Part shown: in pieces, positions 11,364 to 59,000 of the stretch
How the letters are laid out: each line of letters starts with the position of its first letter
Numbering within the stretch: the stretch's first letter is position 1
NCBI GenBank assembly: GCA_949358305.1
Contig: OX442315.1
Location: forward strand, 3,286,001-3,350,000
Reading direction: 5' to 3'
Length of the DNA stretch: 64,000 nucleotides
From: Strigamia acuminata
Lineage: Eukaryota > Arthropoda > Chilopoda > Geophilomorpha > Linotaeniidae
Made by a program: the position numbers and the translations under genes
Notes under the pieces: model-generated
What the model was told of the DNA's origin: nothing
The model's database searches: none
The model's input: only the letters and a program-made list of their open reading frames with translations

Positions 11364-11435
11364 AGATTTGCTAACCTTAAGACAATACTTTAAATAATAA
11401 CCGGGATCTTTCGATCGATCATTATATCGTAAGAA

Positions 11436-17023: not shown

Positions 17024-20000
17024 TTATTTCTTTTGTGGTATTCTTTGTTGTTTGTATTTGTGGAATAGCAAAATGTCGTGTAAAAATTCCATAACCGACA
17101 CACCAAGAATAAAAGATACGGTAGAACCCACATCACAAAGAAGTTTGACAAAGGGGAATGACAACTTTTCCTCAATAACTTCTTGCAAATTATGAAAAAC
17201 TTTAACAATTACTAAATATGTGCCTAACTGGGAATCCGCCAACACATTAAAGTCAAGATTGTAGATTGAAACGACACAAGGTTTGGTGCAATTGCAGTCG
17301 CTTGTCGGATCGGTTTTCAGCATGATAGAAAGGTATTGTGATTTGACCAGTTTGGCTGATTCTGCATTTGGACACATTTCCAAAGATGAATTCATAAAAG
17401 GCAATCTAAAAAGACAACATCTTTTTTTCTCAACGGATGACGGCATTTAGGAAGATAGGACCAGCTCCAGAATAATTGCTTTCACTTGATCCACCAGATG
17501 GAGCAAAAATTCATTGATTTTTTAAGACATCACTCATGTGGTGTCACAAATAAGCCATAAATCTTTATTTTTTGATGTGTGTAAAGTAAAATAAACTTTT
17601 CCGGAACTGGCAAGAAAAGATTTGTAAGTAACTGCATACTTGCAAGAAAATTGGGCCGCCATTTTTTTATCTAAGCAGTTTTGGACACATTGCAAGTGTT
17701 CTGTTCTTCCAACACATCGACTGTTTGGTGTATTTGTTCTGACTAACTGCAAAAATGAGCAACCATTAGACATATTATTCGTAGTTTGCAATGTCATATA
17801 CTTTTTGCATTGTGTAGAGAAGTGTATACATTCCAGTTTCTTGCATGTGTAGATATGTTTTCAAATCGAATTCGTTGCCAGGAAATATTTGAAATATCTT
17901 TTTCAAAGGCAAAATGAATTAATAATAAAATAAATTTTAAAAATTTTTATTTTTTAACTTTTGCTTTCATTAGACAGTTGCCAAACTTTGGTAAAATGGC
18001 TACCATATAACCAGAAAAAGATGGAAAATATTTAGTAATTCCTGAAAAAAAAATACTTAATTTTATTGAAAACAACTTTATTATATTGCCATTATAAATA
18101 CTTATAAGTGTTCTTACCCGGATTAAATTTTGTACAGAAACCGAAAACCATTGAAAAAGGTTCAGTAGTTACTGGAACTGGAATATTTTTAGCAAAATCC
18201 TACAGATAATAAATTAGACATTAACCATATTAAACATATTAAACATATTAAAGGTTCCATAATTTTACCAATTCTGGCACAATCATAAATTTTAGACCCT
18301 TTGCAGATGATGACCACAATTGATCAAAAGACATTTCAGCATTCACCATATTTAGCATATCAAAATCATCCACACAACCAGAGATGTTATTCAGCTTCAT
18401 ATACTTCTGCTTTTGATACACCAGTTTACTACTGTCCAAGCATAAAACTACCGATGGAAGTTCAATGTTTTCAATTCCCACCATTCTTACAGATATGGTT
18501 TTCGGATAAGACAAGTAATACACAAAGGGATCGTAAATCTTAAAACCGCAGACAAAAGTTAGAAGTATTGTGAGAAAAATCCACAAATACTTTCTCTTGT
18601 AGTTTTGTTTGGTCAAAATGTACTTCAAACCAGTTAGTTGGAAACTATCAAGCAAATGTTCTTCGTTTTCATCCACATATTTCTTAAGACATTTCTTAGC
18701 TCTGCATTCTAGTACAGAAAACTGATGTGATTTCTGCTTGGATCTCTTCACATTGTGAATAATCAGAGTAATTAGAATAATGATTATTTCAGCAATCATG
18801 AGACAAGACACTCCGAGAGTGAGTCCCATGTTTCCTCCTAAATCGCAGAAGAGCGCAATCAAATCGTAAACTGCAACTTCTTTTGCGATTCTTATGGAAT
18901 CCATCACTTTGACTCTCACAGTCGATCCTGATTCTTCCTCAACGATTAAACTATTCGAAATAATTTGATGTTTGCAAGATGTGGTGCACTTGCAAGTATT
19001 TGAATCATTGCTGGCTTTCCAAAGTCCCAAGTAAGCTGTTCTGGCTTCTGTGTACATCAAATCGTAATCTTGTTGGCACTCTGGCAAATGCTCAAAGTTT
19101 CGCATAAATGGCAACCTAAGCAGAAGAAAAAATTAACTTTATGTTTTACTGCTAGTCTTTAAATATATCTTGATCATACAAACCTGCAATCCACATTTCT
19201 TTTTTGTATTTGCTGCCTTATGCACTTTTCTTCGCACATTTCAAAATCTGCGATTGAACTGCATACGTGTTTGGATCTGTTCAGGAATTCGTACTACAAC
19301 ACAATAAAATGATCAGATTGATTACACAACGTCTACAGTTCTTAAATAATTATAATCACTTTTTGAATAGACGCAATACTTAGTGCTGTACGTTTAGATG
19401 GCAAGGGAAGTCTCCAATGAAGTGTGAAATTTTCGTTATCTGCTAATATAAACTACTCCATAGAGAAATTAAAATACTCTGAGAATAAAGACGACTTTTT
19501 GTGCCTATTACACTTACAGCAATCTCTGGATTTAAACATCTGTTTCCAAGCTTAGATTTATCAAATTTAAACACTAATTGATTTTTTGGATTTGACAGTC
19601 GAACTCGTTGACCTGTCGACAAAAGTGAACATCACTGATAATTCCAAAAAAAACCAATTGTATTTTCTCACCAAGTGTCAAAACAATGCACAATCCAATA
19701 GGAGAGAATGCATGTTTTACTTTATATTTTAGATTTACCGATTTATCCTAATAGAAGAGAAATGTAATTTCAGTTTATTAAGAAACAGATCTAGCATTTA
19801 CTTGTAGAGTTTGGATGCTGTCAACAATGTGACTTGTGTTAAACATGGACCAAAATTTCATTGCGCTCACGTTGCATCCACGACTGTACATAAACAGAGG
19901 ATCTACGCAACCCAAAGACCCATCTTTTGAACTCACACCATTACTAGTATCAGTCTTTAAGGCATATTCTGTTAATTCGGGAGTGGAGGTTGTGCACAAC

Positions 20001-20284
20001 ACAACAGTGGGAAACTGAACGATGTTGTCTACTTGCGTGTATATGTTGACCACCGATGGTTCAGACATGTAGTAGGCTAATCGGTCGTACGTCAATGCAG
20101 TGCAGAGAAGTAGGCTCACTGTCAGAGTGGCGCCCCACAAGATGCGCACAAGCCAATTGGATTTCCCGTCGTTTATCTTCGCCATGATACTCAAGAAAGC
20201 ATCGTCACTATTTCTAGATAAATTGTGGTTTCGCACCAATTGAAGGACTCTCTTGCGAAAACGAGGTTTAAGTTTGCAAACCAT
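17024..20284 (-). CDS. DEG/ENaC gene A: two channel subunits fused in tandem (817 aa, 11 exons)
   Basis: Proposed exons (minus): 20284-19802, 19747-19672, 19612-19518, 19452-19360, 19293-19184, 19115-18269, 18199-18118, 18041-17959, 17897-17802, 17746-17640, 17405-17024. All introns are GT-AG. The total is 2454 nt, exactly 818 codons. The family is sodium-permeable plasma-membrane channels (degenerin/ENaC/pickpocket). Unit 1: TM1 at residues 45-67, FPTVVLC just after it, GLCIVLTLGQ, a Cys-rich ectodomain, and TM2 at 377-405 with the selectivity-filter type GVS at 387-389. A cytosolic linker of about 55 residues leads to unit 2: TM1 at about 462-480, LPSVVLC, GFCTKFN, FPGNEFDL, CxC pairs, and TM2 near 782-806 with GVS at 792-794. 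Exon 6 spans TM2 of unit 1 through TM1 of unit 2 without a stop. The weakest splice site is the exon 8 donor (GTTAAA). Gene C is a paralogue with the same structure. Confidence 0.82.
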
Positions 20285-22573: not shown

Positions 22574-22625
22574 CAAGTTGAATAACTGATTCTAACCTGT
22601 GATTACATCATACCCAAAGCAAGAA

Positions 22626-25600
22626 ATGGCAGATAATACTCGAGTAACAGACTCCGACTCAGACGTTAACAAACGAGCCGGTAGTCGCAAAGGAACCGAC
22701 TATCATTTGAGGTCGGGAGGTCCTTTGCCCAAAGCCTCAGCGCACGAGTCTAGGCAAAAACGCCGCAAGGCCAAGCCAGACCGACGAAGCGCTTCGGAGG
22801 CATCGCACCCGTCTCACGCCGAGACGAGGCAGCGATTAGACGAGACGGAGCGGAGTGAGGATCCGTCCCACCCCAAACCGCCGCGTCCCAATCGTGACGG
22901 CGAGACGAGCGGAAACGAGGTTTTATCCCGTAACCAATCGCCTCGTCTAACGCACGATACCGAGGTGAGCGATCCGAGAGCGACGTCTTCGATACAAAGG
23001 ACGGCGTCCGACACGACAGCGAATTCAGCGCTAAACACGCCAATTACGCACAGTCGACCAGCCTCGATAATGTCTGAAGGGCACAAGTCCAACTCATCCT
23101 CTGTCAAGCGTGTTTCGAGCCAGCCTTACAGCGTCTCGGGCACCTTGATTGATGCGATGCAGTTGGCACAAGCGGAGGGAGTGAGATACACCCTTCCGAC
23201 GGGAAAGATTACAGTGTACGAAACGTTACAAATCGTACGTGCAGCTTTAAAAGCGCACAGTGTATCCCCACAAATCACCATTGTTGAAGGTGCACACGCT
23301 CAACAATTGGTTGATTCCGCTCAATTTGAAGCGGATGCAGAGAATGAGGCTCGACAAGCCATTCGCGAGAGACGGAGGAAGCTGGCGGAAAGAGAAGCGC
23401 AAGCTCTCGAGTACGGCAGAACCCAGCCCAATCCGACTACTCCCGAGGAGGTAGAAATAGTTGACCGAGCCCTGAGAGCACATCGATATGCTTTCCACTC
23501 GCAACAAGAAGCAGAGCGAGCATTTATGGCCAGATTGCGACGAGATGACCCGAAATCCGTTCGCAAACCAGAGATCAGTTCATCCGAGCTGTCCGACGAG
23601 AGCCTAGAGGGAGACCCAAAGCGCACGCCGAAGGCCAAACCCAAACCCCAGCCGGAGAGGGCAACACCAGCTACTCCGCGCAAGAGAGATGCTTCGGCCA
23701 GAGAACAACAAACTCGGCCCCGCATGCAAGCTCTCGATTCAGCCACAAATAATGCGATAACGCGGTTAATCAACGCTAATAATGCTAGGCGAAATGAAGA
23801 GCAAGCTCTCACAAGCCAACAGCATGATGATCCGCAAGGGACTGAGTGGCAACAACCAGTGCCCATCCTTAAAGACGACGAGTCGTCAAGGAGACAATCG
23901 CATGATCGCACCTCTTCGCGAGAAGAAGGCAAACGCGATGAAAGACCGAAATATTTTCACTACGGAAATAGTGATTCGTCGTCAGATGGGCTGGAGTCAA
24001 ATGCACCCAGTCATCACGATTCGGAGAGAGGTTCCGGAGAAAGACGAAGGGAAAGAGAACGCGATGAACGCAGGGAAAGGGAACGTGACGACCGTCGTAG
24101 GGGCCGGAAAGAGTCAAACTCTTCACGGCGCAACTCGCCACGCCGCTCACCGTCTCCCGACCCCAGCTCCGACCCCTCATCCAACGACGACAGACGAAAG
24201 GATAAATCAAATAATCGCCGGAAGAGATCCAACTCTCCGCGCGATAGAGAGAAACGACGTCGATTGGAAAATAGCGACCACCGACGGGAGGAGTTTCAGG
24301 ACCTTCCCCGACAAAGCGCGTTTACCGATTCGACGGGTCGGCAGTATACGATGGGAGAGCTTGGAAGAGCCCTACTCGGCTCGTTAAAAGCCGAGGGAAT
24401 CGATCTGAGCAAACGAAACGATCGTAATCGTAGCACTGGTGACCGCGTAAAGAAAAAATACGCTGTCTCCCGACGTGACACCATGAGTGTTACCGGGAAT
24501 ATTAGGTGGCAATTTTATATTCAGAACCGTTTCGACGGGTCATGGAAAGCGGGAGATCGCTTCCTTGACAAAGTAATTCGAATTAAGACTGCCACTAAAG
24601 CCACCGTAGGAGACATGCTCACCCACGGTATTGTCGAGCTAATGACAGGCTCGGCACGTGAGTGGTACCAAGGATTGAAAGGCGTCAATTGGGACGACTT
24701 TTTAATGAGATTCGACCTGCGCTACGGCGAGACACCCGAAGAGGTGAGCCGAAAGATGCGAGGTCTTCGCCAGATGCCTGGTGAAACCATAATGGATTAC
24801 GACATTCGCGCCAGATTGTTGTTCGAAAAGGCCCCGATGGAATTTCACGCCACGGGATTCAACCTTTTCTTTCTCGGCGGTTTGTCGGAATACTCGCAAA
24901 GGGTGCTACTTGAAGAAAGGGCACCGACAGGAGGTAGCTACGAGGAGATGAGCGCCTTCCTGTTCGAGAACACGATAGATATCGAGAAGAGGTATTATTC
25001 CGCTTTACCAGAAGCGGAGAAAGCAGCGACCGCGAACCGTCTCAAATTGAGTGCGGAAAGATATGGGGCGACAGATAAGATTATGCGCCCTACTGAATAT
25101 CTTAGCGGTATAATGGAGCTGGCAGAAGCTAGCGTTGGTTTGCAAATAAAAAATAAACTGACATCCACGCTGCCTTCCAACCCTTTGGCCGCCCCTCAAG
25201 GAGGGGGAGGAAGCCGGACAAGATGCCGGAAAATTAGACGAAAAAGAAGAAAAAGACGATTATTCAACGGACGAAGAAATACGAAGCTATCGCGATACCT
25301 TATCAACGGGTTGCGATGAAGAAGGACCGCTAGTACATCTCATCCATCGAGATAGAGCGGTAGAAGAATTTCGCGCCAGGTTAAAACCAAATGCCGGCCG
25401 AATTCCGAAGTATTTTCGAAAAAATTACACGTCACCGTCGAAAGCAGACCCTGAAAAGAAAAAATCGACTGAAGCCCCAAGAGACAAATCAAATATTCGT
25501 TGTTTCAAGTGTAACCAACCGGGTCACTATTCCAATGAGTGCCCAAGAACAGCGAAAGAAGACGCTAAGTTTGACGCGATAATGAAGCAGATGGCAGAGA

Positions 25601-37007: not shown

Positions 37008-39400
37008 ATGGCTAGCCCACCAGCACACCGTATTTGCGTATTGACGCAAACTCAAGGGAAAAACGAAAAAAAACAAACACACCCATGTTGGCGAACTAAA
37101 CCGTACAAAATTGCATTTCAAGCAATTCGTCTTAGCTTGTGTTGTCTCTCCGTTCTCGTGTGCGTCTGGCAAGTGTCAAACTGTTTAAATCGCTATTTGC
37201 TGCAGCCAATCAGCACTATTGTTGTCATGGAATACAATATTGATAATTACACTTTTCCCACAATCGTCGTTTGTCCCAATGAGTTTATCATCAAGACCAT
37301 TCAGGAATTAAAAATGGGAAAATCCAACTTATCCTTTGATTTCGAATCCTGGAATAAAAACGATTTGGATGGCTCGATGATTGGGCATAAGGTATTCGAG
37401 TCTCGTGCCGTAAAACGATACATAATATTGTAATACATTTCAGTGCTCCGAAGCAATTAACATCAAATGTGTTGAAGGCAAGGTACTGGGAGTTCCCATC
37501 GACTTGGTGGAAGGTCATTGCTACAAATACGTTAATGGTAGGATTAAATTTGAAAAAAAATGTTGACAAATGTGAATTGTAGATTTGTTTTAACCGTTTA
37601 GATAATGTTTATCGTTTTACCGGAACTGATTATTGGCAGTCGTACTTAGTTTTTCCAAAGATGAACGACTCAGCATCGGCTCAGGTTAGTTTGTGATTTG
37701 AAGAAATAGATTTTGATGCGGTTTGTCAAATGTTTATTTTTCCAGATATTTCTTTCATCCAAAGTGGTGTACGAATACAATCTGCAAAATATGAAACTTG
37801 GTCGGCAAATGTTGAATTCCCTTTTTTTCAGAATTACTGAGGTAAATCTTATAGCACATTGACATTAGCAAAATGTTTTCATGTCTAGAGTTATAGAAAG
37901 CAATAATAATAATAAAGTGGAAGTCAGAATTCAGAATTCTTTACAGTGAAGCGAGTGTGTTTGATACAAGTGAGAGTGCTGTACAGAGAAGTTAGTGTGC
38001 TTTACAGAGAAGTGAGTGTTTTACAGAGAAGTGAGATTGTTTTTCAGAGAAGTGAAAGTGTTTTACAGAGAAGTGAAAGTGCTTTACAGAAAAGTCAGAG
38101 TGCTTTCAATTGACAAATCCAAAACTCATGATATTTGCAAAACATTTAATCCACAAATTTCTGCATAGGCAGTTGCTTAAATTAAATGCAATATTTTACT
38201 CAGTTTCAGAATATCAATACAAATCGCAATCCGTGCTGGTCCGAAGACAATGTCACTAATTGCATGAATTTATGCATGGATAATATACTTTTTCACACAA
38301 ATATGACTTGCGTGGTATGATAAGTTTATAGTACAGAGAGAGAAACCTGATGCCTTTGAAACCCTCTAACTAATTCAAATTATCATTTGAAATGCCATTT
38401 TTATATCTGGAAAACTATTTCATTTGGGTGCTCCCCTTGTGAGCTAGAATGACCTCAATATTTTTGTCTTTAGCCACTATTTTGACTAGAGTAGTCATTT
38501 TTGGGGAAAGCAATGCAAGCACTTCCACCAACGCCTTTTCAGTGGTCACGAAGCAATATACAAAGCAAGGAACGCATGTGAGTGATATAATTTTCCAGAC
38601 AAAAAAATGGCTTTTTTTAGTTTTAAAAAAAAATGTTAATTATTAGCTACAGTGTAATCACATTTTCAAAATCATGAAGTCTCTCTGGATCACCTTGTAT
38701 GAGCAAAGTATATACCAGGTGGTCCAAATAAAATTTTCCTTGACAATGCAAGGATGGTCACTAAGGATGTCTCAAAAATGTATATATAAGATATTGCCAT
38801 TTTTACCGATCTTTCGTTTTGATTATCCAAGCTTTCGTTTTCGAGATATTTGCATTCCTAATCAATTTTTGTCCCAATTCGCCGATTAAAGTATATTTAA
38901 TTGAACAATGTACACATTTTTTCGAGACACCGTGTATTGTCGGTCCGGTTTTATTTGGTCCACGGGTATAATTTTTTAATATTTAAAAACGAAATTTAAA
39001 AATAATCATTGTGTGGCTTCCGTAGTTACCTTTCATGAAGGCAGAACTTCCTTTTTGTTCAACTTGGGAGGAAGTTTCTAATTTTTACGACCAAATCTTG
39101 AATGAGGCGTACATGGAACGCCATGCGTGCAAATGCAGACGGCCATGCAATTCAGCCACTTATACGACAGTGGTGCAGGGAAGTTCAGATTTTAAAACAA
39201 CTGAAAAAACACTCTACATTTTCATTATAACTCCAAAAACAGCTGTAATTGAAGTTTTGTCTTATCCTTTTTCTTCACTCATGGCTGACGTATTGAGCAA
39301 TGTGGGTTTTTTCATTGGCATCTCAATGCTGAGTATATTCGATTTTGTTTTGAAAACTGTAAAAGAAATTGTATTGCGCATTAAAAGGATGAAAATATGA
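37008..39400 (+). CDS. DEG/ENaC gene B: single-unit channel (378 aa, 6 exons)
   Basis: Proposed exons: 37008-37391, 37444-37537, 37602-37684, 37746-37841, 38210-38314, 39026-39400. All introns are GT-AG. The total is 1137 nt, 379 codons including stop. TM1 is at about residues 39-60, followed by FPTIVVCP; a conserved GHCYKYVN segment (family G-x-C-Y); a Cys-rich stretch (CWSEDNVTNCMNLC); LPFM and the CKCRRPC pair; and TM2 at about 342-366 with filter-like GIS at 352-354. It acts as a plasma-membrane cation channel subunit by family membership. The ectodomain is shorter than in most DEG/ENaC proteins (total length usually 450 or more), so either domains are reduced or an exon was missed. Intron 4 carries a 21-bp minisatellite and intron 5 a MITE. 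It runs opposite to genes A and C. Confidence 0.78.
37944..38105 (+). repeat. Minisatellite of about 21 bp units in intron 4 of gene B
   Basis: Roughly eight imperfect units of the form GTGCTTTACAGAGAAGTGAGA are in tandem. Confidence 0.85.
38711..38970. mobile_element. About 260-bp TIR element (MITE-like) in intron 5 of gene B
   Basis: The left end TATACCAGGTGGTCCAAATA and right end TTTTATTTGGTCCACGGG with TATA are imperfect inverted repeats (13 of 14 in the core). The TA at the borders would fit a Tc1/mariner-type target. No transposase ORF. Confidence 0.6.
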
Positions 39401-41977: not shown

Positions 41978-44900
41978 TTAACCAGCTAGTTGTTTGTATT
42001 TGTGGAATAGCAAAATGTCGTGTAAACATTCCATAACCGACAAACCAAGAATAAAAGATACGGTAGAACCCACATCGCAAAGAAATTTGACGAAGGGGAA
42101 TGACAAGTTTTCTTCAATGACTTCTTGCAAGTTATGTAAAACTTTAACTATGAGTACATTAGTCATTTTAAATCCGAAACCCACCATCACATTAACTTCA
42201 GGATGGTAGATTGTATCAACACAAGATTTGGTGCAGTTGCAGGCGTCTATGGGGTTGGTTTTCAGCATGATAGAAAGGTATTGTGATTTGACCAGTTTGG
42301 CTGATTCTGCATTTGGACACATTTCCAAAGATGAATTCATAAAAGGCAATCTAAAATGACATACGGTAACATCACAATTTATGGCACAGCTCCAGAATAA
42401 ATTTTATCACTTGATCCACCAGATGGAGCAAAAATTCATTGATTTTTTTATGACATCATTTGATGATATCACAAAAAGTTAATGAATTTTTATTTTTTAT
42501 GTGTATAAAGTAAAATTATTCGGCCCGGGCGTAAGTGTCAATATTTTTTCCAAAAAAATGTAATTTCTTAATTAAAGTCACTGATTTTTTGAAAAAAATC
42601 AGCGATTTTTTGGGCAAGCGCTAATACCCTAATCGTCGCTGACCCCGTGTGACGTCGTTCCCATTGAATAACATAGAAATGACGTCACACGTACAAACAC
42701 GAAACGACAGAAACAAGGCGTTTTAGAGTTTTTGAATGCAGCTAGTGCAGGGTCGGCAACCTGCGGACCACGAGCCACAGGCGGCTCTTTCAATGTCAAG
42801 ATGCGGCTGTATGGGACCTAATTTAATACTGTAGTGGCTCTTTAACAACTGGAAAATTTTGTAAATTGTAACTTTTGGCTCTTCCGTCTCAAAAGGTTGC
42901 CGACCCCTGAGCTAGTGCAATTGCGTACTTGCAAGAAAATTTTGCCATCATTTTTCGATCTACGCAGTTTTTCACACATTGCAAGTGTTCCGCTTCTCCA
43001 ACGCATCGACTCTGAGGTGTGTTTATTCTGACTAACTGCAAAAATGAGACAACATTAGAAATTTTACTCTTTGTTTGCAATTTCATTTACTTTTTGCATT
43101 GAGTAACGAAGTGTATACGTTCCAGCTTCTGTCATGTGCAGATATGTTTTCAAATCGAATTCTTTGCCAGGAAATATTTGAAAAATCTTTATTCGAAGTA
43201 AATGCAAAAGAAATTAATACACTAATAATAACTTTTAAAAAAGGCGTTTTTTTAATTACTTTTGTTTTCATGACACAATTTTTATTCCCTGCTGAACCAC
43301 CGGTAGATATCATATATCCAGGAAAAGATGGAAAATATTTTGTAATATCTGAAAATATTAAAATTGAAACAACTCGTAGAATAGAAGGATAGAAGTGTTC
43401 TTACTCGAATTAGATTTTTTACAGAAACCGAAAATTGTAGAAAAAAAATCAAGTGTTACTGGAACTTGAGTATCCTTAGCAGCATCCTACGTTGACACCA
43501 GAAAAAATTAGAAATCATTTACAGAAACACATAATAGGTTTCATAGTCATACCATTGGTGCCACAACCATAAATTTTTGACCAGTCTTAGACCATTTCCA
43601 CAATTCTTCAACAGATATGTTATCATCCATCATTTTCAACATATCAATATTATCGAGACAACCAGAGACATTATGTCGTTCCATGTATCTTCTCTTTTGC
43701 AACGCCAGTTTACCACTGTCCGAGCACAAAACTAACGAGGGCAATTCAATGTATTCAATTTCCACCATTCTTACAGATATGGTTTTCGGATAGGACAAGT
43801 AATACGCAAAACGATCATAAATCTTAAAAGCGCAGGCAAAACTGAAGAGCATTGTGACAAAAATCCAAAAATACTTTCTTCCGTAGTTTTGTTTCGCCAA
43901 AATGTACTTCAAACCAGTTAGTTGGAAACTATCAAGCAAATGTTCTTCGCTTTCATCCACATATTTCTTAAGACATTTCTTAGCTCTGTATTCTAGTAGA
44001 GAAAACTGAAGTGATTTCTGCTTGGATCTCTTCACATTTTGAATAATCAGAGTGATTAGAATGATGATTATCTCAGCTATCATGAGACAAGACACTCCGA
44101 GAGCGAGTCCGATGTTTCCTCCTAAATCGCAGATCAGTGCTATTATGTCGTAAGTTGCGACTTCTTTTGCGATTCTTATCGAATCCATCACTATGACTCT
44201 CAAAGTCCATCCAATTTCTTCCTTCAGCATGAAACGATTCGAAATAATTTCTTTTTTACAAGGCGTGCTGCACTTGCAAGTATTTGAGGCATTGCCCTTC
44301 CAATATCCCAAGTAAGCCGATTTGGCTTCAGTGTACACCTCACCATAATCTCCTTGGCACTCTGGCAAATGTTCAAAATTTCGCATGAATGGCAACCTAA
44401 GCAGAAGAAAATATTTACTCAATGTACTTGTATACCATTTTACAATACAAAAGAAATATGAATAAAGAAAAAGAAATTAATTTTTTGATTTTTTGAAAGC
44501 CGGGTCTGTGACAACTTCACGTTCATACCAACCTGCAATGCACTTTACTTTTTTCTATTTGTTGTTGCATACATTTTTCTTCGCACAATTCAAAATCTGC
44601 AATTGAACTGCACACTTGTTTGGTTTTGTTTAGAAATTCGTACTACAATAAAATAATGATACAATAACTACAATAGTTGTCACGGGCACGTCTACCCGCC
44701 TATTTTTATTTTAGAATAACCCAATCTTATTTCTTATAATATTTTCTTGTTTCTCTCACTCGTGATGATTCATCTCGCTTACTCATCTTCAGTTAATGAA
44801 TGCGCGATCTGGATGATGCGCATATCATTATTCTTAACAATCGAACTCCTATTTTCACCTTTCCACCCCCTTCTTTAATTGATCTGACCAGTCACATGAC

Positions 44901-47900
44901 TGAGTCTTCTTCTTTCCAATCATCCTAAGTTTAATCACTTCTTCTTATGCTCTCTACTGGATAACACCATTCTCCTTTAGTAACATCTAGATTTAGTCCT
45001 CTATTATTTGCGCCTTCAATAAGCGCTCCTACATCTAACCCTATTGCGCTATTTTCCAAGCCGACATCTTTTATATTATCACTGCCCGATGATATCCCCT
45101 TCCCACTTTAGGTTTATATCATCGTGCTTCCATTCTTTTATGCCTACAAACACCCGTCGTAAGCAAGGAACTGTCCAATATAAATTATGTTAGTCAAACG
45201 CGAGTATTAGGTTTCCTGAGTTTCTGGATGTCCACATTTGAAGGAAACAACGTTTAGGGAAATCTACGAACTTTGCCCATTACTATTGCGCGAATTAGTT
45301 TTTGCGCGATATTGTTTAGAATTAATTATACCAACAGAATTAATCGTGACAACATGGCGAGCCTGACAGGATTCTCGCTTATTTAGGCTGAAAACGCGCA
45401 AGAAAGTTAAGTTTTCGTTTAAATTATTAATCATTCTCATTATTTTTTCATCATGTCGAATGAGTTGGGAAACGGTGAGGAAAACCCCACTGTACGAGAC
45501 CCCTTTGATTTGGACGAGCTGGCTTCGTCTCTCGACTGGCAGCGTTATGAGCGTTTAAGGCGAGCACGAGCGGAGCAAAGTGAGTTATTGATAACCATTG
45601 CAAATTCAATGCCGCCAACATTTCGTGACAACATGTCGGCTCAAATACCTGGCGTAAACATTTCTGCGCCAACGACAGTTGCCACGTCAACACCAGCATA
45701 TCAGCTCGTGCCTCCAGCTTTCTTCACTCCTGGCACGTCAGGAATATCAATGAATCCGACGATTTTACATTCCGAAGCTTTATTGATGTGTGATATTCGT
45801 AATCAGTTTTTCGTTCAGGCACAGGGATTACTCAAAGAAATGCGAAGCATTTACCAACAAGGCACCAGCCCTCCACATCCAACGACACCCCCGTCAGAGG
45901 ATGGTGGGTCCTCTCATGGATCCATAAGGGTAAAAGGCAATTCGGCACCATTAGGAAATGAACTTTCCACGGAAGTTCCTCATTGTGGAGGAGCAAGCCA
46001 CCAACAACAGTTTGCGCCCACCACCATCACTGCGCAACCGACGTTTACAACCACAACGCCACCGGTAATGACGCAGGCCACTACTTTTACTCAATGTCCG
46101 TCCGTGGCATCACAAATTATGGATTCAACAAAAGCCAATCAGCAGGTGATGAATTCTTTATTATGTGCCAAAATTAACAACACAGGGCACCCATCCGGAG
46201 TAAGGGCCCAATTGTCTCTACCATCAATACGAGTAAGACGAGAAGACTCTTCCCGAGGATACAACAATAATAAGGAAAAACTCCCACGTTTCGACCCTGA
46301 GAAGGCCACACTTGACTCTGTTAATTTGTTTCTTGCGCAATTATTCGCGCATATGTATTCCACCCGTATGCCCGAGGAAGAGTATTTAAAAGTGAATATA
46401 ATTCAAGCAACCCGCAACAAGGCGCAACGTTGGTGGCTCGCATTAAAACCAAAACCCAAAACATGGATTGAGTTCGAGGTATTGTTTCGTAAGGCATTCT
46501 CCATGAATTCAGCGGCAGCTAATGTGAAAATTGCAAATCGAAAGCAACGCAGTGGAGAGTCCACCATGACTTTCCTCAGCGAAATAATATATTATTTAGA
46601 AATTGCAGGCTACACAGACCCTGGATTGCAATGGGAGAAGGCCCAGAACATGTTACTGTCTGACGTCGTCCAACTTTTGAGAACAATGCACGTCAAAACA
46701 ATTGACGAAGCAATCCAAATAGGAAACGACGTAGACAATCGACTACTACTCGACTCTCATCGCAAAACTGAGTATAAACATTTGGGTCTCGTTGATCAAT
46801 TTGCACCCCTTTCAGAGGTAAACCCTTCGTCTCCCACCGTGTTGAAATCCGTGGACAAGTCCAGAGGTGAAGCCGAATCTAAAACCTCCACGTCCCACGA
46901 CGCCAAACGTTTTACGCGCTATCGTAAACAACAGCTTATGTTAGAACTAGCTGCGTTGGAAGCCCGACCCGAGCAACCTTCGCCGCCACAGGAGCCGAGT
47001 TCAAGTAGCAGCAGTGAGTCGGAATCGGAAGTGGAAACCAAAAAGAGTTCTGTCGCCGGAGCCGCGCAAAAGGTGAACATTTCAGTAAATTCAACCACAA
47101 TTGCGCCCCCTGCAGATCTCCCAAAGGACCATGTCTGTTCTACCTCTGTTGTTACATTTGCGCCATCACCAAAACCTCCAACAAGCGTCAAGTTTCCCGA
47201 AAAAGGTGCAGCTTGGCGCAAAACGAGAAAGGATTGGTGGTACATGATTGATAACACGACTTGGCGCCCCATTTGTCCTGTGTGCTACAAAGTTTTCGAG
47301 AGGCAGGAAAACTCCGACGGCCTGAAGTTCCCACGACCGGCGGAACCAGGCCGCAAGTAAATCAACCGGTCTCCACTAGCGTAAAACGTGTGGAATCAAC
47401 AAGACGTGCTTCACCCGACATCATCCTTGACGAGAACATTTCCGATAGGATAATTCCAACAACAACTACTTCTTCTACCACTCCTAGTGAGTCTAAACCA
47501 GGAATTAGTATTGTATCGTCCACACCTCCATCTTCATCACCGATAGTGACGAATCAACGGAAAACTTCAGTTTTGCAACCTGTGGCTTTCCAATTAGCAT
47601 CTGGACCTGTTTCAAAGTCGACAGCCTTGCAAGCTGCGACTGCACAGAAACAAATCACCAAGAATGTGAGTAAAAACTTTAAAATACCCATTATTAAGCC
47701 TACTTCCAGTGTCAAATCAGCGGAAGCACCCAAGGAAGTGATCGCTCCAATGAAGGTATCTTTTGTCATGTTGACATCGGAGGAGCTTAAAGAATCTCAA
47801 GAGCCAATTATTGAGATAACACGCGCCGATAGATTGCGCAGAGAAGCTCCATGCGTAAAAATATCTTGGGCAAATGTGTCATTTACCGCGCTTTTAGATT

Positions 47901-50900
47901 CAGGTGCTCAAACTTGTATCATGAGCGAGGAATTATTTCAACAACTTCACGAAAAAATGGGACTCGAATTTATTAATTTACATGAAAAGGTACAGGTCGC
48001 ATCCGGACACGTAGTTACTGCTTCAAAATCAGTGACGCTTGCGTTGCGAGCGCCGTTAGGAGTGGTGAAATTCGTGTGTTTAGTGTTGCCTGATGCCAAA
48101 AATGACTTGATCCTCGGACGAGACTTTAACCAAGCAGTCGGAGCTACCATCGATCATGGAAGGAGCCAGTGGAGCTTGGCTGGCTCAGACGAAATTCGTA
48201 AATTCGTGACCTATGAAGACGCCAAAAAATCCGAGTCCATTCTCGTATTTCCAATGGCACCGGAGGAACTGGATAAATCAGCCACTCCGCCAGTTAAAAT
48301 AAGTGAGATTGTTCCAAATAAAATACTCAAAAAGCCTGCGCCACCCAGTGACATTAACTGTGTGCTGCTGTTACACCAACCATTGAAAAATGAGGTTTTT
48401 GAGTATCCAAACGACGACTCACAAAGACAAGTAAAAACAATTAGGCATCGCAGTCGAACAACGTGGTCGAACATCTGGTCACCGAAACGAAAGGAAATTT
48501 CGAGGACTTCGAGTAAAGTAAAAAAGACAATTTCTCGTAAGTTAACGATAAGTCAATTTCGTCGATTGCGCCGCCTTCGTCATAAATTGAATGTTATTCG
48601 TCCCATCGCCAAACAATTGATTGCGCAACGAGCCAAAGACATTAACGACAAAAAGAAGTTAATTAACGACTCCAGAACAACTGCGCAACCTACTAATGGT
48701 GAGAACGACTCAAATTCAAGTGTTTACAACATCAACTTTTTGCAGTACCAGCCCAGTGAGAATCCGACCGATCTCGATTGGATTTATCACCAGTTATGGA
48801 ACCATCTGACTGTTACGCAAATCAAACTACTAATTGAAACTTTACAGCCAATCTCACAGATTTTCCGAGAGGAAGTCGGTTTATGTAATAATACGGAATA
48901 TGAAGTTAATCTAAAACCGGATTTTCGTCCGATCCATGTTCCAGTACGACCCGTAAACCCTGCGAAAAAGGCAATTATTGACAAGTACATTGACAAGAAA
49001 CTTCAACAAGGCATAATTCGCCGTTCACAAAGTGATTGTGCCGTCGCTCCAGTGGTCGTGCCCAAAAAGACCGGGGAATGGAGGACAGCAATGGACTTCA
49101 GACCCATTAATGCGCAAACAATTCCGGATGTGTATCCACTTCCGGACATAGACAATATATTTGCGTATTTAGGTGGTGCACATTGGTTCTCGATAATCGA
49201 CGGGCGCGAGGCCTTTCACCAAATTGGAGTGCGCAAGGGAGATGAGCGATTCTTGGCCTTCATAACACACCGAGGACTGTTCGAATACGTTCGTATGCCC
49301 TTTGGCCCCATCAACGGTCCTGCAACACTCCAAAGAGCGATGAATAAGACCTTGGCCAAATATTTATATAAATTCGTATTTGTATACATTGATGATGTTA
49401 TTATTTTTAGCAAAACGTTTGAGGAGCATGTTCAACATTTGCGCCTCGTTTTGGAGGAATTATTTAATGCCGATTTCACCATGAACGCCAACAAGACCGA
49501 GCTCTGTCAACAGCGCCTCGAAGTTTTGGGCCACATCGTGGAATCTGGTCAGATTTCTCCAAATCCGAAAAAAGTGTCAGCTATCCAAAACTATCCTGCG
49601 CCAACAAATTTGCGCGAGTTACAACGTTTCAAAGGTATGGTGGGTTATTATCAATCTTTTATTGCGAACTTTTCCAAGACAAGTGAGGTATTCCGACCAC
49701 TACTCAAAAAAGATGCTGTTTGGCATTGGAACGAAGCGCAACAGGAAGCTTTTGATTATCTTAAAGATCAAATAGCGACTCCAACGCTGAAGAGACGTTT
49801 TCCCAGCTGGAAAAAGCCATTCATCCTTCAAACAGATGCAAGCTACTCCGGTTTGGGGTCGGCTTTAATGCAATTAAATGACGCAGGAGAAAGGATACCA
49901 ATAGCTTTCGCTTCTCGTGCGCTTAACAGTGCTGAAAAAAACTATAATGTGACTGAAATTGAGTGCCTAGCAGCCGTGTGGGCGGTGAAACGTTTCCGCG
50001 CTTATTTAGAAATGATGCCATTTTATTTAGAGAGTGATCATCGTTCTTTGAAGTGGTTATTTCAACAAAGAGAACCAACTGGCCGACTTGCTCGTTGGGT
50101 ACTCTCACTAAGCGAATACAAATTCACTTTCCTGCACTGCTCAGGATGCAAAAATCGAGTGGCCGACGCACTAAGCAGAGCACCAGTCGATCCACCTGAA
50201 CACGACGAGGAAGATGACAGTCCACTCGTCGATGAAGCCTGCTACACAGCATATTTTGATGACTGTAACCAATGGCCAGGATTGTCCATCATTACTGAGT
50301 TGCCAAAAGACATTAATAGACAATTTAAGAAAATGTTCAAAGATAAATTCATTAAATCAACTTTAATTTCAGCCATATCTCCAACTAAACAAAAGAAAGG
50401 AAAAAGGAAATCCCTCATTCCTCGTCGAATTACAACGACCACTACACCATCCAATGCGCCAACTCAAATTGCGCAACCCACTTCAACAGCTGCGTCAACT
50501 CCAGTTGCGCAACCAACTCAACAAACAACTCCAGTAACACCACCTTTAATTTCACCTAATACTCCACCAGTTCGTGTTTCAGTGCCACTTCGAGCGCGCA
50601 GACAACATTCGTTGATTCCAATATTGACGAAGAAAAGAGGACGACCACGTAAAATCATGATGATTCCAGTGCTCTCCCCTCGCGCCAAACGTGCTATTGC
50701 GACAAGAACTCGAGCTAGATTAAGGGATCCCACTTTGGTTCCGAAAGTATCTCCAAAACTACCGAGATATGGAGCTAATATAAAGAAATGGACATTTCCT
50801 AAGCTGCTGAAAGCACAGAGAGTTGGAAAAGGCAAAAGGACGCCGAAAGCACCTCGTTCAGTGGTTTCACCCATTCCCACGGCACTTCCCAGTCCTATTC

Positions 50901-52989
50901 CTGTTCCCATTCCTACACCAATTCCCATTCCTCCGGCTCCAACTCTTCCTACTTCGCAACCAAGAGGAATACCCAGAAAATCGTCTGGAATCCCCTCTCA
51001 TATTTTACCTCCTCGTAAAAAACCTATTCCCACACCAATTCCTATTTCCAAAATACCAACTCCACCAATTCCTAAACTTAAAGGACGACCCCGAAAGTCA
51101 GCTGGAATTCCCTCTCATATTTTGCCACCAAAACCAAAACCTACCCCAAAATCAACGCCTATCCAAATTCCCAATTTTCCTACACCTTCTCCCACACAAT
51201 CCATTCCAATATCGCAATCTCCTATTCCTCCAACCTCTCCTATGTCTTCGCCGTCAACGACAACTGATACAGCACCAACTGTGCCACCAGTGTTTGACCC
51301 CGGACCAGGGCCTTCTGGACACCAACTCCCCGATGGATACCCTTCCGAGCCGGACTCCGACACGTCGTCATCCGACACGGACAGTTTTAGCCCAATTCGG
51401 GACTTTCCTTCGTCGGTGGAGTATCCAGTGCCAAGAGGTGGAATGCCTCGAACTCCGACAAGACTGCGCCCGAGATCTGAACGAACATTTACAGAATCAG
51501 ACAGAAGGCTCACTGAAGCGGAGCAACAGGCTGAATTGGAACACGATCCACCTATTGAACATCCACCATTTGAAATGCTTCCAGACGCCGCTGAAATAAT
51601 AGCCGCACAGAGACAAGATCCGTGGTCGCGTGAGTTGATATACTACTTAACTGCTCAAATGCTGCCGGTCGATCCAGTCGAAGCTGCGCAAATTCAAAAA
51701 GGCGCGCAAAATTTTGGTATGCATAAAGATATGTTGTGTCGTTTTCCACCAGTTCATATTAATGAAATACGCAAGAGGCGTCAAATTTATCTCCCCTTGG
51801 AATTGCGCGAACGATATTTCCGCGCAATGCATTACCCTCCAGTAGTGGGACACATGGGAAGAGAAAAAACACTCCATCGTTTAAAGACGCGTGTATATTG
51901 GCCCAAAATGAGAGAAGATGTTCAAACTTGGATTCAAGTTTGCGAGGCTTGTCAACGCGCGAAACCATTAAATCGCTTGCCTTATGGCAAAATGATAATG
52001 TCGAGAGCGCGCCACTTGTTCTCTGCAATTTACATTGATTATTATGGCAAGAAACCACGTTCAGTGGGCGGCCATTGCTACGCCTTTGTAATGGTCGACT
52101 CAGCAAGTCGTTGGTTAGACGTAAGACTAACAGAAGATTCGACTATCGCAACTTCAGTTGCGCAAATTCAGAAATTTACGAAACGCTGGGGTTTTCCCAA
52201 AATCATTATCAGCGACAATGCCCCCGCGTTCAGGTCACCTGAGTTTCGCAGCCAAATCCAGCAATTAGGTGCAGTAAACCGCTACACTGCAGCGTACCAC
52301 CCCCAAGGCAACATTGCCGAACGCCTGAACCAATCCTTAAAAAACTGCATTTTAGCTTACATAGACGACCACGATAGGTGGGATGTAAATATCGGCTATT
52401 TTGTTTTGGCAATCAATTCGGCGTACCAAATTTCATTAAAGTATTTTCCATTTAAGTTAGTTACAGGCCAAGAAGCCAGATTCCCTGGTGATATTGATAG
52501 TGACACAGATGACGGGGAACCTTTACCACCATCTGAGGCTGAAAACCTCCATGAGCAAATGCGCACCATGCGAGAAAGGGCGATGAACAATTTGCGCGAA
52601 TCCCAGATCCGCCACAAAAAATGGTTCGATTTAAAACGTCGCGCTCATGACTTTCGCCCTGGCGATTGGGTGGCGTTGCGCAATCGACAACCCTCTTCCG
52701 CCGACAAACAGTTTGCAGCAGGCTTACGCCAGCGAACTGAAGGAGTCTATATCATTCACAAATTGGTGGGCCCCAATACTGTCATCTTAATGAACCAAAA
52801 TGGCAGAAAAACACAACCATACAACGTTGTTGAACTTCGCCATTGGCATTTTGCGCAAGTTAATTTCCTAACCCTGAAAGATGTCGAAATCATCGACAAG
52901 CATGTCGAAAATTATACGGCTAACACACTAGATATTTTCACTGCTTATTTTCTTTCTTTTAAATAATTTCTCTATTTATTTTTCAAAAA

Positions 52990-53021
<32 letters not shown>

Positions 53022-56000
53022 CAAAAAAAAAAACCAAAGTAATCCGGTGTAATTCCATCGTTACTTTAAAGAAAAATTTCATTTATGTTTTTATGTTTCT
53101 TTATTCTTAAATATTTTATGTTTTATGTTATTCGTTTTACGTTTCATATTTGTTCATTTCAAAATTGACTAAGTCCATTTCCAGTGAGGACAAAATTGCC
53201 CACTAGAGTGTGACACTTTTAATTGCATTTTCAAAACACCACGTGTTTAGATTATTTATTTTCCCAATTTATTATTTTCATTTAGTTATATGTACCTATG
53301 TGTGTTTAGATTTGCATATGCTAAACTTTCTCATTGAAGATCAATGTTAAAATTGACTATTCCTTCTAGAACATTCATTTACAATCTTTCGTTAACTTCC
53401 AATTCTTCACACTAGAGTACGTCGTTCTATTAAAACAGTTACGACTATAGTCTCTAACACCCACACCTTATACCCATGTGCTCATATGACACCTGTGTGA
53501 GAAAGTTCTCGAAGCGTTTGACACTTGTGCATTCTTCTCCTATGGATTAACTTCATGTGTTGACTTTCGTGTGTTGTGTTGTGTGCGCGTTCATAATTTG
53601 CGCAATTCTAATTGTAAGTAACGTTTGTGATATGTTCATTGTTTCAATTTGTGTATATAACCCCAATGATTGAAATCAATTAGGCACAATTACATCTCGT
53701 TGAGACAACATGGCCGACAAGCATGTGTGTCGTTGCAAAGAGGATTTTCCGGGCGAACCTTACCCGAAGAACTTTGCCGAACCGCTACTCCACGCAGTCG
53801 GGCCGCCCAAATTTCCATGCTGGCATCCGAACAATCCACGTGAACACAGCTATCCCAACTTCGAGATATGCCCGGTTTGTTCCGGATACGGGTACGAACT
53901 GGTTGTTTCAGGCTTGGATAAGATTTGCCGAGCGTGTGACGGGCGGGGCGATCTTCGACGCGGATTTCATCGTGTGTGGATGCGCCAGATTTATGGCTGG
54001 TGCCTGTTTCGTCGTGTGCAGGACAAAGTATACCTAATCGGGGTGGAGTTTCCACAATTTCGGCCACCAAACGGTACACCAGCCATGGTGCAAAGATTCC
54101 GCGCCGGTCATTTCAAATATTGGCATCGACTCCAGCGAGAGGCGCGACAAGTGAGGATCGTGCCCAGAAGTTGGATTTACCCGACAGCCGAGTTAATGCG
54201 CGTTACATTTGCGCAAGTGCCGAATTTGCTCGCCGACGAGATCGCCGGTTTGGACCCGATGGACCAGGAGCAGCGGGAAGTTGACGAGGCACAACCGACG
54301 TTGCCCCAATTCTTCCACAGCTTTCCTGGGACCGATGCGAGTCTTCAAGAGCAAATCAGCATTGCATTGGAGTCGCTGGGAGACCTCACCACTATCGACG
54401 ACAACTCTGATACCGCGCTGCCATATTTTTACCAACGCAGGCCACCATGCTCGATAAATCGAAATCCAAATCGAGAACAACAATTAGCCATTAAGGTGCG
54501 CAACACTTTGGCAATCTCGTCATCGGCGCTCCCGCACGATCCAACTCGCGACACGGAGACGGAACAATTTGTGCCCAGACCTTCGGCCGAGACGATCGCC
54601 AAAGCAGCTGAGAAGATGGCGACACTCAGCATTACCACCAAAGAGGACACCGAAAGTTTGTACTCTAATTCCACTGTGTCTAATGTTGAATTCTCCACTC
54701 CACCAACAGAAACGGCGCTACGACCAGTGCCACAACTGCAATTCATCCCTGAATCACCTGTGTTAGCGGACGATTCTGCGCAAGAAACATTGCGCAAAGA
54801 GAACATGGACGATTCTCAACAATCTGTTGTGACCGCTAGACCTACAGAATTTGACGTGCAATCCACCATGAGTGTGACCCCGTCGATTCTGGACATCACC
54901 AACGAAATTCGTGGTAGTGTTCCCACCGCCAAAATAAGTGATGTGCGCAGACTGGAACGAAAGATGATTGACATTCGTGACATCGACTTTCCGTCTGCCA
55001 AAACTGATTTTTCTCGGCCACGCGGACCGCCGATGAGCGCTAGACTGACACCAGCCGTAAACGCACCGTCATCAGCGTCAACGCCGAATTTACAAATTAA
55101 CCCTGATATTGACAATTTAAATATTAATTTATCTGCCGATCTTTTTCCAGCTTCGACCGTCTCTGCTGCTTCGGCCGATGTATTTTCACAAACGTACACG
55201 ATCTCGCCAATTGCACCAGCAACCGAAGTTCCAGTGTGTCAGCAGGCAAAACCTTCAAAAGTTCCAACTTTGCCAGTGACGCCGATTACTTATGCGCAAT
55301 TTCCAGGGCGCAATGTAACTACGACAACGACGTCCGGCGCCAACTTTAACATGTCAACCACCACGGCTGCCACCGCCAAGATTCCCGTAACCTCGACTAG
55401 CGTTTCGAGCACATCATCTTACCGGTCCCGACTCGATTGCGCAATTCCAAACATCGGAACTGGACTCTCGTTTAAAAAAGTCGCTTCTCGTTGCGATTTG
55501 GCTTTCGATAAGTATGGAGTAACCCAAAAACCCGCCAACTCATTCGAAGTCATTGAAGAATTTCTACGAAAATACGAGGTTCAGATCTCCATTGAGGGAC
55601 CCGGAGTGTCTCAAACTCGTTTCCAAATTCCATGGAAGGCCTGGAATGCGCTTATCACCTTCATGATGGTGGAGGATTTCAGTATTTACCAGGGAGACTT
55701 CCGCATAACCCAGAAAGAGATGATGGACAGGCGGCCCCACATCGCGCGCCAAGTTGCAAAACGAATGTCCGAATGTGGCACGTACGATTCCGAGACAGCA
55801 ATCGAGATGCTCGTGTGGATTTTGCATCGAGAGATCTCCGTCCATCTCTACAAAGTCCAGGACACCAGGGACTACCACAACATGATGGAGGAGAAGAGAC
55901 GCCAAGAACGAGACGCGGAACACGAGTTAGAAAAAGCCCGAGTTGCCGAAGCCCACCGCCAAGCAGACGAACGTGAAGCTCGTGAGCAAGCGGAAAAAGA

Positions 56001-59000
56001 GGAAGAAAAGAGACGGTCGGACGAATTGCGCCTTCAAGAATTGCGCAATCTGATGACAGATTCAGGATTTTACCCGATGACCGCACCATCTATCCCACCG
56101 GCCCAAGGATCACAAATTTGGGATGACACGCCTCCTCGCATCACCTTGGAACTGCTCCCCAGTTTGTTGCCACCAGCTGCGGTCGAGTGTAATTTCGCAA
56201 ATGCCAATGGACCATGTCTCCAGTTTGGGATGTCTGCTGCATCGGTCCGCCAACTTTTTCAATCCCTTGCGTCAGCCGACCTCCGTATGCGACCAGAAGA
56301 GGCCAAACCCCTCCTCCATTCCCTGTATCTCCGATACGGGGAACTCTTTTTAGATCACTGCAAAAATGAAATTAACAGGCAAGGTGCCACAAACTACCGG
56401 GACGCAATGAGAGTTGTGGTTAACGTGGCTCTCAACATGATCAAATCATTTCGGATGCCGGCCCCGTGTAGAACCTTGTCAGGTAATCCTTAATAAACAA
56501 TAACAATTTCTTCAAATTAGATATTCTACGGTGACAACAACATCACTCGGAAAACCGTAGGACCACCTATTTTGCGCCACCATTCTCTTTGCGCAATTAA
56601 ACCAACAAATCACCACCAACAGTGTCTTTCATCATTTCTGCTCATCAGACGGTATGGGAATATTTCCTTACAGCGCCCGTGTAAAATTTCTCATCTGAGT
56701 TACGGAACTGGTCTTATTCTCATCCTCACATATGAGCTGGAAATTAAAAGTATTTCATCTCAGCTATTCGTTCAAGTGCCCCGAGAACAACTCCTTATAG
56801 CGCCCGCCTAAAATTTCTCTACGGAGTTGCGGAACTGGTTTTGTTTCTCGCCACCATGATGGATGCGAGTGAAATATTTCATCATAAAAATTCATCTCAC
56901 ACGTCCTAGAGCATCAATTTCTTATAGCGCCCTCCTAAAATTTCTCTACGGAGTTGAGGAACTGATTTTGTGTTCTAGCCGTTGTATTTGTGTTTCTCAT
57001 CATCATCATTTTGTGTTAAGTGTTTTTCAACAAGTGTAGTATTCCACGGACTGCTGGAAACATTTATTGCGCAAATTTATCTGATCTTCATCACCGCTGG
57101 ATAAGTGCTCCAAAAAGTGAAGTGTTTTCATTTAGTTATATTTTATTTTTGACGTTTTAGACCAGACTGTTAGCCGAACAATTAGTGACTTTTAGTGTCT
57201 AAAGTGCCTTTATTCTTATTATTTTTCATTATTATAATTTTCTTATATTGTGATATTTTTTGAATTTAAATCCTGACTTATTCCAGAAATTATTCTAATT
57301 TTTAAATTCCCTCAAGACTGAGATGATTATGTTTAGTTTTAGTTTGTATCATTTGAATTACTGGAATGAGTCATGATAGTGATAATTATTTGTGATATTC
57401 ATAATTGTGATATGTTATTGTGATTTTTTCAAATTTAGTATTTATTCAATTTTCATAATACCTAATATTTCTAACTGTGATAATTTTCCTGTGGCAACCG
57501 GTCCGGTTGTGCATGAGGATACCTTAATCCCCATTTTTATTATTTCCCTTTAATGATTCCAAATAGTGTCATGTTTATATTTTTTGTTTATCGCGCTAAC
57601 ATTGCGCAATTTTCATATTTTATGTTTATTTCCCCTATCATTCCTTATATACCTACCTGATGTTAAGTCTACATACATGTATGGTATCCCTTACCTTGTT
57701 TTGTTTTGCGCATTCATTTGTGCCATTTTCCTAAAAAAAGGTATCCAATCCGAATAAAACCCCCTGTTCGTAAGATAAACTCTCTTGTGACGTTCTTTAT
57801 TTGTATTATTTTTCGTGTTTAAAATTTATCCGCGTAGAAATTTATTGCTTCGTTTTACAAAGCAAATGGGTAAAATATTTTTATTGTGATGACTTAAATT
57901 GAAAGTGTATAGCCTCAAGTCCGTCCTATCCTAAAAAATTTAGTCCATGTCCTCCCGTGAGTGTCGCGTGTTTAGTTAGTCTTGTCTTCGTCCTTCAAAA
58001 TTGTTTAATCTTTATTCGATGAGTTTTATACGATTTATTTAAAAAGTTTGTTTATTTTTTGATTTATAATTTTCATTTACAAGTCGGTCGGTAGATTTAT
58101 TCTCAAGCTTCCTGATGAGTTAATTTTTGTTATTATTATTTATCTGGTGACGACCCCTAAATTCTCATAATCATCTTATTTAATCAAGAGTATGTTAGTC
58201 TAGACATTTGTTTCACATATTTAACCAAGATTGTATTTGTTGTTGTATTGTTTTGAGTGAGTCTCTCTCTCTTTGCCTTTATTTCAACAACTATAATAAA
58301 GGTTTAAGGGGAGGGGGATGTCACGGGCACGTCTACCCGCCTATTTTTATTTTAGAATAACCCAATCTTATTTCTTATAATATTTTCTTGTTTCTCTCAC
58401 TCGTGATGATTCATCTCGCTTACTCATCTTCAGTTAATGAATGCGCGATCTGGATGATGCGCATATCATTATTCTTAACAATCGAACTCCTATTTTCACC
58501 TTTCCACCCCCTTCTTTAATTGATCTGACCAATCACATGACTGAGTCTTCTTCTTTCCAATCATCCTAAGTTTAATCACTTCTTCTTATGCTCTCTACTG
58601 GATAACACCATTCTCCTTTAGTAACATCTAGATTTAGTCCTCTATTATTTGCGCCTTCAATAAGCGCTCCTACATCTAACCCTATTGCGCTATTTTCCAA
58701 GCCGACATCTTTTATATTATCACTGCCCGATGATATCCCCTTCCCACTTTAGGTTTATATCATCGTGCTTCCATTCTTTTATGCCTACAAACACCCGTCG
58801 TAAGCAAGGAACTGTCCAATATAAATTATGTTAGTCAAACGCGAGTATTAGGTTTCCTGAGTTTCTGGATGTCCACATTTGAAGGAAACAACGTTTAGGG
58901 AAATCTACGAACTTTGCCCATTACTATTGCGCGAATTAGTTTTTGCGCGATATTGTTTAGAATTAATTATACCAACAGAATTAATCGTGACATAGTCTAT

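Follow-up and report, generated by a model that had tools for sequence, protein, structure and literature searches.

The window considered here, a stretch of 64,000 nucleotides from the centipede Strigamia acuminata, carries two related genes on the minus strand (genes A and B), each of which encodes two complete DEG/ENaC units in a single reading frame. A single-unit DEG/ENaC gene lies between them on the plus strand. The mitochondrial contig of the same assembly has the gene order cox1-cox2-cox3-nad6-nad2, with nad5-nad4-nad4L on the opposite strand, which matches S. maritima (PMC4368715); genes other than cox1 were assigned by eye, as was an atp6-like frame that led to the rejection of chaetognaths as a source. 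The coordinates of these genes and their exons, together with the loci elsewhere in the genome that share their organisation, are collected in Table 1.

Table 1. Positions of the two-unit genes, their parts and neighbouring features in the window, with further loci of the same organisation
Feature	Position	Strand	Description
Gene A	17024..20284	-	11 exons; 817-residue reading frame with two DEG/ENaC units
Gene A, exons 1-5 with introns	19115..20284	-	Unit 1: N terminus, TM1, up to the thumb region
Gene A, exons 1-5 singly	20284-19802, 19747-19672, 19612-19518, 19452-19360, 19293-19184	-	
Gene A, exon 6 (fused exon)	18269..19115	-	Unit 1 palm, GVS filter and TM2; linker; unit 2 TM1 and start of the extracellular domain
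Gene A, linker	18590..18757	-	Predicted cytosolic, from TM2 of unit 1 to TM1 of unit 2; HNVK...KRK, about 55 residues (56 codons counted)
Gene A, exons 7-11 with introns	17024..18199	-	Remainder of unit 2, GVS filter, TM2, stop
Gene A, exons 7-11 singly	18199-18118, 18041-17959, 17897-17802, 17746-17640, 17405-17024	-	
Single-unit DEG/ENaC gene between A and B	37008..39400	+	ATG 37008, TGA 39398-39400
Single-unit gene, TM1 exon	37116-37334	+	Search match; the gene model covers the TM1 and TM2 exons
Single-unit gene, TM2 exon	39026-39364	+	Search match
Gene B	41978..59932	-	Paralogue of A; 11 exons as in A, 814 codons, open throughout
Gene B, exons 1-5	59932-59456, 59397-59322, 59258-59164, 59110-59018, 44642-44533	-	
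Gene B, exons 6-11	44396-43553, 43486-43405, 43348-43260, 43186-43091, 43035-42929, 42350-41978	-	
Gene B, fused exon	43553..44396	-	L017 in the selection analysis
LTR retrotransposon in intron 4 of gene B	44678..58992	-	14.3 kb; ACTA on each side; limits and flanks read by eye
L010, L019, L021	C3		TM1, fused TM2-TM1 and TM2, besides A and B
L031, L033-L035	C5		TM1-[TM2-TM1]-TM2 order
L064	C1		TM1-[TM2-TM1]-TM2 order
L065	C6		TM1-[TM2-TM1]-TM2 order
L066	C3, 10.48 Mb		TM1-[TM2-TM1]-TM2 order

Spliced, gene A amounts to 818 codons including the stop, with GT-AG limits at all ten introns, which reproduces to the codon the 11-exon model proposed in a preliminary description of this DNA. The exon limits are based on splice signals and on the comparison of A with B; the donor of exon 8 (GTTAAA) is poor. 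A model of 804 codons, using another acceptor for exon 4, was rejected because the 818-codon frame is conserved in gene B. Exon 6 is open over 294 aa from stop to stop and leads, as had been claimed, from TM2 of unit 1 through the linker into TM1 of unit 2. When the units were searched separately against PF00858 (the one residue at the joint falling in neither piece), each alone exceeded the cut-off of 23.6 bits, unit 1 with 51.4 bits over profile positions 15-454 and unit 2 with 65.3 bits over positions 4-447 of 455. The assignment of the upstream exons to one unit and of the downstream exons to the other stands.

Each unit comprises TM1, a large Cys-rich extracellular domain and TM2 (ordered TM1 and TM2 matches; alignment to PDB chains), along with a GxS selectivity filter, which reads GVS in both units of A and GVS and GLS in units 1 and 2 of B, respectively. 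The two units of gene A share 23% identity (E 1e-14, computed on the 804-codon model) and the intron phases 0,1,0,0,2; exon 6 is the counterpart of a last exon fused to a first one. Between an in-frame ATG inside TM2 of unit 1 and another past TM1 of unit 2, gene A has none, in line with the earlier statement that no ATG-led restart is needed between the units, and a second unit that includes its TM1 therefore cannot be initiated at an AUG there. The linker of gene A itself contains neither an ATG nor a poly(A) signal. A poly(A) site in the linker had been named as an observation that would speak against a joint product; AATAAA and ATTAAA are absent from exon 6 of both A and B.

Gene B is a second fused copy in the window and does not appear in the preliminary description. 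It differs from A by dN 0.168 and dS 0.343, and the splice sites are kept in both genes. Intron 4 of gene B, which would be about 14.4 kb long if spliced, harbours an LTR retrotransposon; its insertion looks recent, since 300 nt of the two LTRs are identical. Two open frames of 891 and 907 aa on the plus strand of the window (11433-14108 and 22596-25319) appear, by eye, to be retrotransposon gag-like.

Whether the linker is maintained as protein can be judged from its pattern of substitution. Genes A and B are by themselves uninformative in this respect, because their linkers (18590-18757 and its counterpart in 43553-44396) differ at just 2 of 31.8 silent sites although dS between the genes as a whole is 0.343, which hints at gene conversion. 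Among 20 close copies fetched from the genome, the fused exon is open in 19. The exception, L026 (C3:4409532-4413377), has six stops in the fused exon, with its first-exon frame and its unit-2 TM1 frame open, and was left out of the dN/dS analysis on account of these stops. Across 16 copies (L009-L024, including A and B; 120 pairs), the linker shows pS 0.263, pN 0.094 and dN/dS 0.31, as compared to 0.39 for the unit-1 part and 0.46 for the unit-2 part of exon 6, and its insertions and deletions are whole codons. Such a dN/dS, together with whole-codon indels, is not expected of an untranslated linker, and on this sequence evidence the linker is kept as protein by purifying selection. As the linker is both open and under purifying selection, there is good support for the view that one chain is made from both units.

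The fused exon is not confined to the window. Whole-genome searches with two fused exons as queries, exon 6 of gene A and a distant one on C5, located at least 200 distinct places, on 10 contigs, at which one match spans the filter and the linker and runs past TM1; this number is a lower bound, only the best candidates having been scored (138 of 1682 and 148 of 1610), and counts matches instead of complete genes, while a few of the places, some on small contigs, may be duplicates of others in the count. It draws on 123 of the 149 matches to exon 6 (the remaining 26 match one half only) and on all 148 matches to the C5 query. No stop occurs within the match at 197 of the 200 places, and at least three places carry stops. 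The full order TM1-[TM2-TM1]-TM2 was found in five gene groups on four chromosomes (C1, C3, C5 and C6); at the remaining loci, the fetched flank yielded one outer exon at most. A three-unit gene was not seen, the closest same-strand fused exons among the matches listed being 4983 bp apart, and in L031, whose C5 sequence was read throughout, two fused exons are separated by both a last and a first exon. Judged from these matches, the fused exon is the marker of a large family in this centipede, on a scale that was invisible from the window alone. The earlier claim that one reading frame holds two DEG/ENaC units is accordingly borne out by the gene model, the separate Pfam scores, the paralogues and the selection on the linker.

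Two side observations concern the same searches. At L064, positions 5-112 and 9306-9413 hold identical frames of 51 residues with a GS-type TM2, one of which directly follows the last exon of a two-unit gene; they may be remnants, belong to another gene or serve as an alternative last exon. A genome-wide search with PF00858 returned at least 93 matches, scored from 2095 first-look candidates, and the DEG/ENaC family of this genome is very large.

Conventional genes of the same family serve as a control. In L002, L003, L005, L007 and L008, TM1 and TM2 occupy separate frames, that of TM2 ending in a stop shortly behind it; the gene that follows in L007 carries an ATG of its own, further downstream. 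The presence of such single-unit genes indicates that the fused frame is a habit neither of the genome nor of the reading. Single-unit matches, about 2-4 kb apart, also form a tandem cluster (L007, L008 and C4:7.358-7.377 Mb). In the single-unit gene between A and B (37008-39400), the filter region lacks the usual GG, and this gene is a candidate third subunit.

The residues just before the filter bear on the origin of the fusion. They are GG in unit 1 (40 of 40) and GS in unit 2 (14 of 14), while five of six single-unit sequences have GG and the sixth has neither. A quickly built tree of the TM2 region separates units 1 by one branch (SH-aLRT 62, which is weak) and units 2 by another (SH-aLRT 89); the TM1 tree, which has long branches, requires two changes for each unit group. 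These trees omit 20 loci, namely 16 duplicates, L026, and L001, L004 and L006, for which single-unit and two-unit genes could not be told apart, as well as pieces shorter than 75 (TM2) or 60 residues (TM1). L001, L004 and L006 have GG, a short unclassified TM2 piece of L064 has GS, and at L042, L057 and L011 the terminal pieces are too short to include this place. The distinction of GG in unit 1 and GS in unit 2 across the family favours a single fusion, and modest support thus exists for one fusion followed by expansion. In the simplest history, a six-exon single-unit gene would have been duplicated in tandem and the stretch between the coding regions lost, so that the last exon of one copy and the first exon of its neighbour became one exon; multiplication of the fused gene would then have carried the fused exon to about 200 places in Strigamia acuminata.

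Taken together, the gene is most probably a natural DEG/ENaC tandem dimer, made as one chain, which arose by fusion of single-unit genes and was then multiplied. Such a chain would have four transmembrane helices and two extracellular domains, with both of its ends and the linker in the cytosol. Both termini of a DEG/ENaC subunit are cytosolic, and the linker is therefore topologically unproblematic. What tells against a simple tandem-dimer picture is stoichiometry, as two-unit chains do not go evenly into a trimer. A tentative preference is given here to a two-plus-one arrangement, in which the linked pair would occupy two places of the trimeric channel and a further subunit, perhaps the product of a single-unit gene, the third. 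This arrangement is favoured because single-unit genes are present in the genome, one of them between A and B.

In a possible though less probable arrangement, a double-barrelled channel would form from three two-unit chains: their units 1 would make up one trimer and their units 2 another, the two trimers being tethered. The trimer rule would then be satisfied without a partner, and separate pores for units 1 and units 2 would fit their family-wide distinction (GG against GS). A linker of about 55 residues in gene A, and of fewer in some groups, nevertheless limits the spacing of two trimers, and an AlphaFold2 prediction of the fused exon alone reached a mean pLDDT of 40.1, which lends this arrangement no strength.

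Assembly from two chains appears rather improbable. Three of their four units would form the trimer with the fourth left out, or all four would form a pseudo-tetramer, and in either case a partner gene would be unnecessary. Engineered tandem dimers of other trimeric channels provide a precedent, as a unit can be left out of them. A unit that is habitually left out should nevertheless decay, yet in A as in B each of the two units is complete and open, and dN/dS in exon 6 is 0.39 for the unit-1 part and 0.46 for the unit-2 part. As for a pseudo-tetramer, no tetramer is known among solved relatives.

A comparably low probability attaches to the proposal that one unit, probably unit 1, has ceased to form part of the pore and, tethered to the other, serves it as a regulator or chaperone. 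Its basis is the HG motif before TM1, which is common in DEG/ENaC proteins without being universal. Read by eye, the corresponding residues of gene A are D-A in unit 1 and T-G in unit 2, the His being absent from both; the single-unit genes L007 and L008 have I-G and L002 has T-G. Since plain single-unit members also lack the His, the motif was not counted as defining. In gene A and in the groups on C1, C5, C6 and at C3:10.48 Mb, unit 1 has no Gly at this place, and unit 2 retains it in A and in the C5 group, as a regulatory unit 1 might lead one to expect. The pattern is not clean, however, for unit 2 has also lost the Gly in three groups; moreover, it is unit 1 that keeps the canonical GG and GxS filter, and the changed GS sits in unit 2. 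Since both units of A lack the His, and unit 1 the Gly as well, a unit may gate or conduct abnormally; the HG loss in unit 1 of A and the GS change in unit 2 speak against simple pore function.

It is improbable that the units exist mostly as separate proteins, whether through cleavage of the linker or through alternative transcripts. A Met codon between TM2 and TM1, present in 18 of 40 distinct fused frames, would agree with such a division; it is missing from the other 22, and gene A has none; the lack of AATAAA and ATTAAA in exon 6 of A and B, along with the in-frame purifying selection on the linker, argues against it. An assembly error or pseudogene, as might be suspected from some broken copies such as L026, is hardly credible in view of 197 open places on 10 contigs, selection on the linker and the splice sites kept in A and B.

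The favoured two-plus-one arrangement invites a wider, speculative extension. By analogy with insect odorant receptors and their co-receptor, the approximately 200 two-unit genes might constitute a large repertoire of sensory receptors, each linked pair needing one partner drawn from the less numerous single-unit genes; this is put forward as a doubtful possibility. A sensory role as such is a guess, drawn from analogy with two studied centipede relatives.

Known DEG/ENaC channels consist of three separate subunits, and a two-unit chain kept by selection and spread over at least 200 places in one animal would depart from this plan. A natural chain of this kind would imply a fixed two-plus-one channel, paired trimers or a broken trimer rule. 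Furthermore, it would reveal a subunit order fixed by evolution, a property so far studied with engineered concatemers, and the fused exon may be the sign of an extensive family of sensory genes in geophilomorph centipedes. The preliminary description knew of no natural DEG/ENaC concatemer, and none was found in the literature searched, a scope that excludes most subscription papers and the annotated animal protein databases. The genome paper on Strigamia maritima uses none of the terms ENaC, degenerin, pickpocket, sodium channel or amiloride in its main text. Annotated two-unit models may exist unremarked. As far as these searches go, the parts are known, and the tandem chain and its multiplication are undescribed.

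Among solved structures, both units of gene A match best to BRTNaC1, the Scolopendra broad-range thermal receptor 1 (PDB 8ymr, 8ymw, 8ymx), with E values of 4e-12 for unit 1 and 1e-10 for unit 2. With 431 residues, BRTNaC1 is about as long as one unit of gene A and has one unit per chain instead of two. PDPNaC1 (PDB 9jf7) matches unit 1 over positions 31-398, nearly its whole length (E 3e-11), and is not among the solved-structure matches of unit 2. It is a proton-gated channel, found in neurons of the centipede antenna, for which a homotrimeric assembly is reported (PMC12714832). It belongs to the same subfamily of short DEG/ENaC proteins as gene A, although as a single-unit member.

More distant relatives set the two-unit chain apart in a similar manner. 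ASIC, ENaC and FaNaC share the Pfam family with gene A (ASIC and FaNaC chains give weak matches to unit 1), but they have one unit per chain, and three chains make up each channel. Laboratory concatemers of ENaC and ASIC, in which each unit's C terminus leads into the N terminus of the following one, are connected in the same way as the units of gene A, yet they are engineered and not natural. Natural joining of pore subunits or domains is established for K2P, two-pore and four-domain cation channels, all of which have tetrameric pores. In these channels the joined units fill the tetramer evenly, whereas the two units of gene A meet a trimer.
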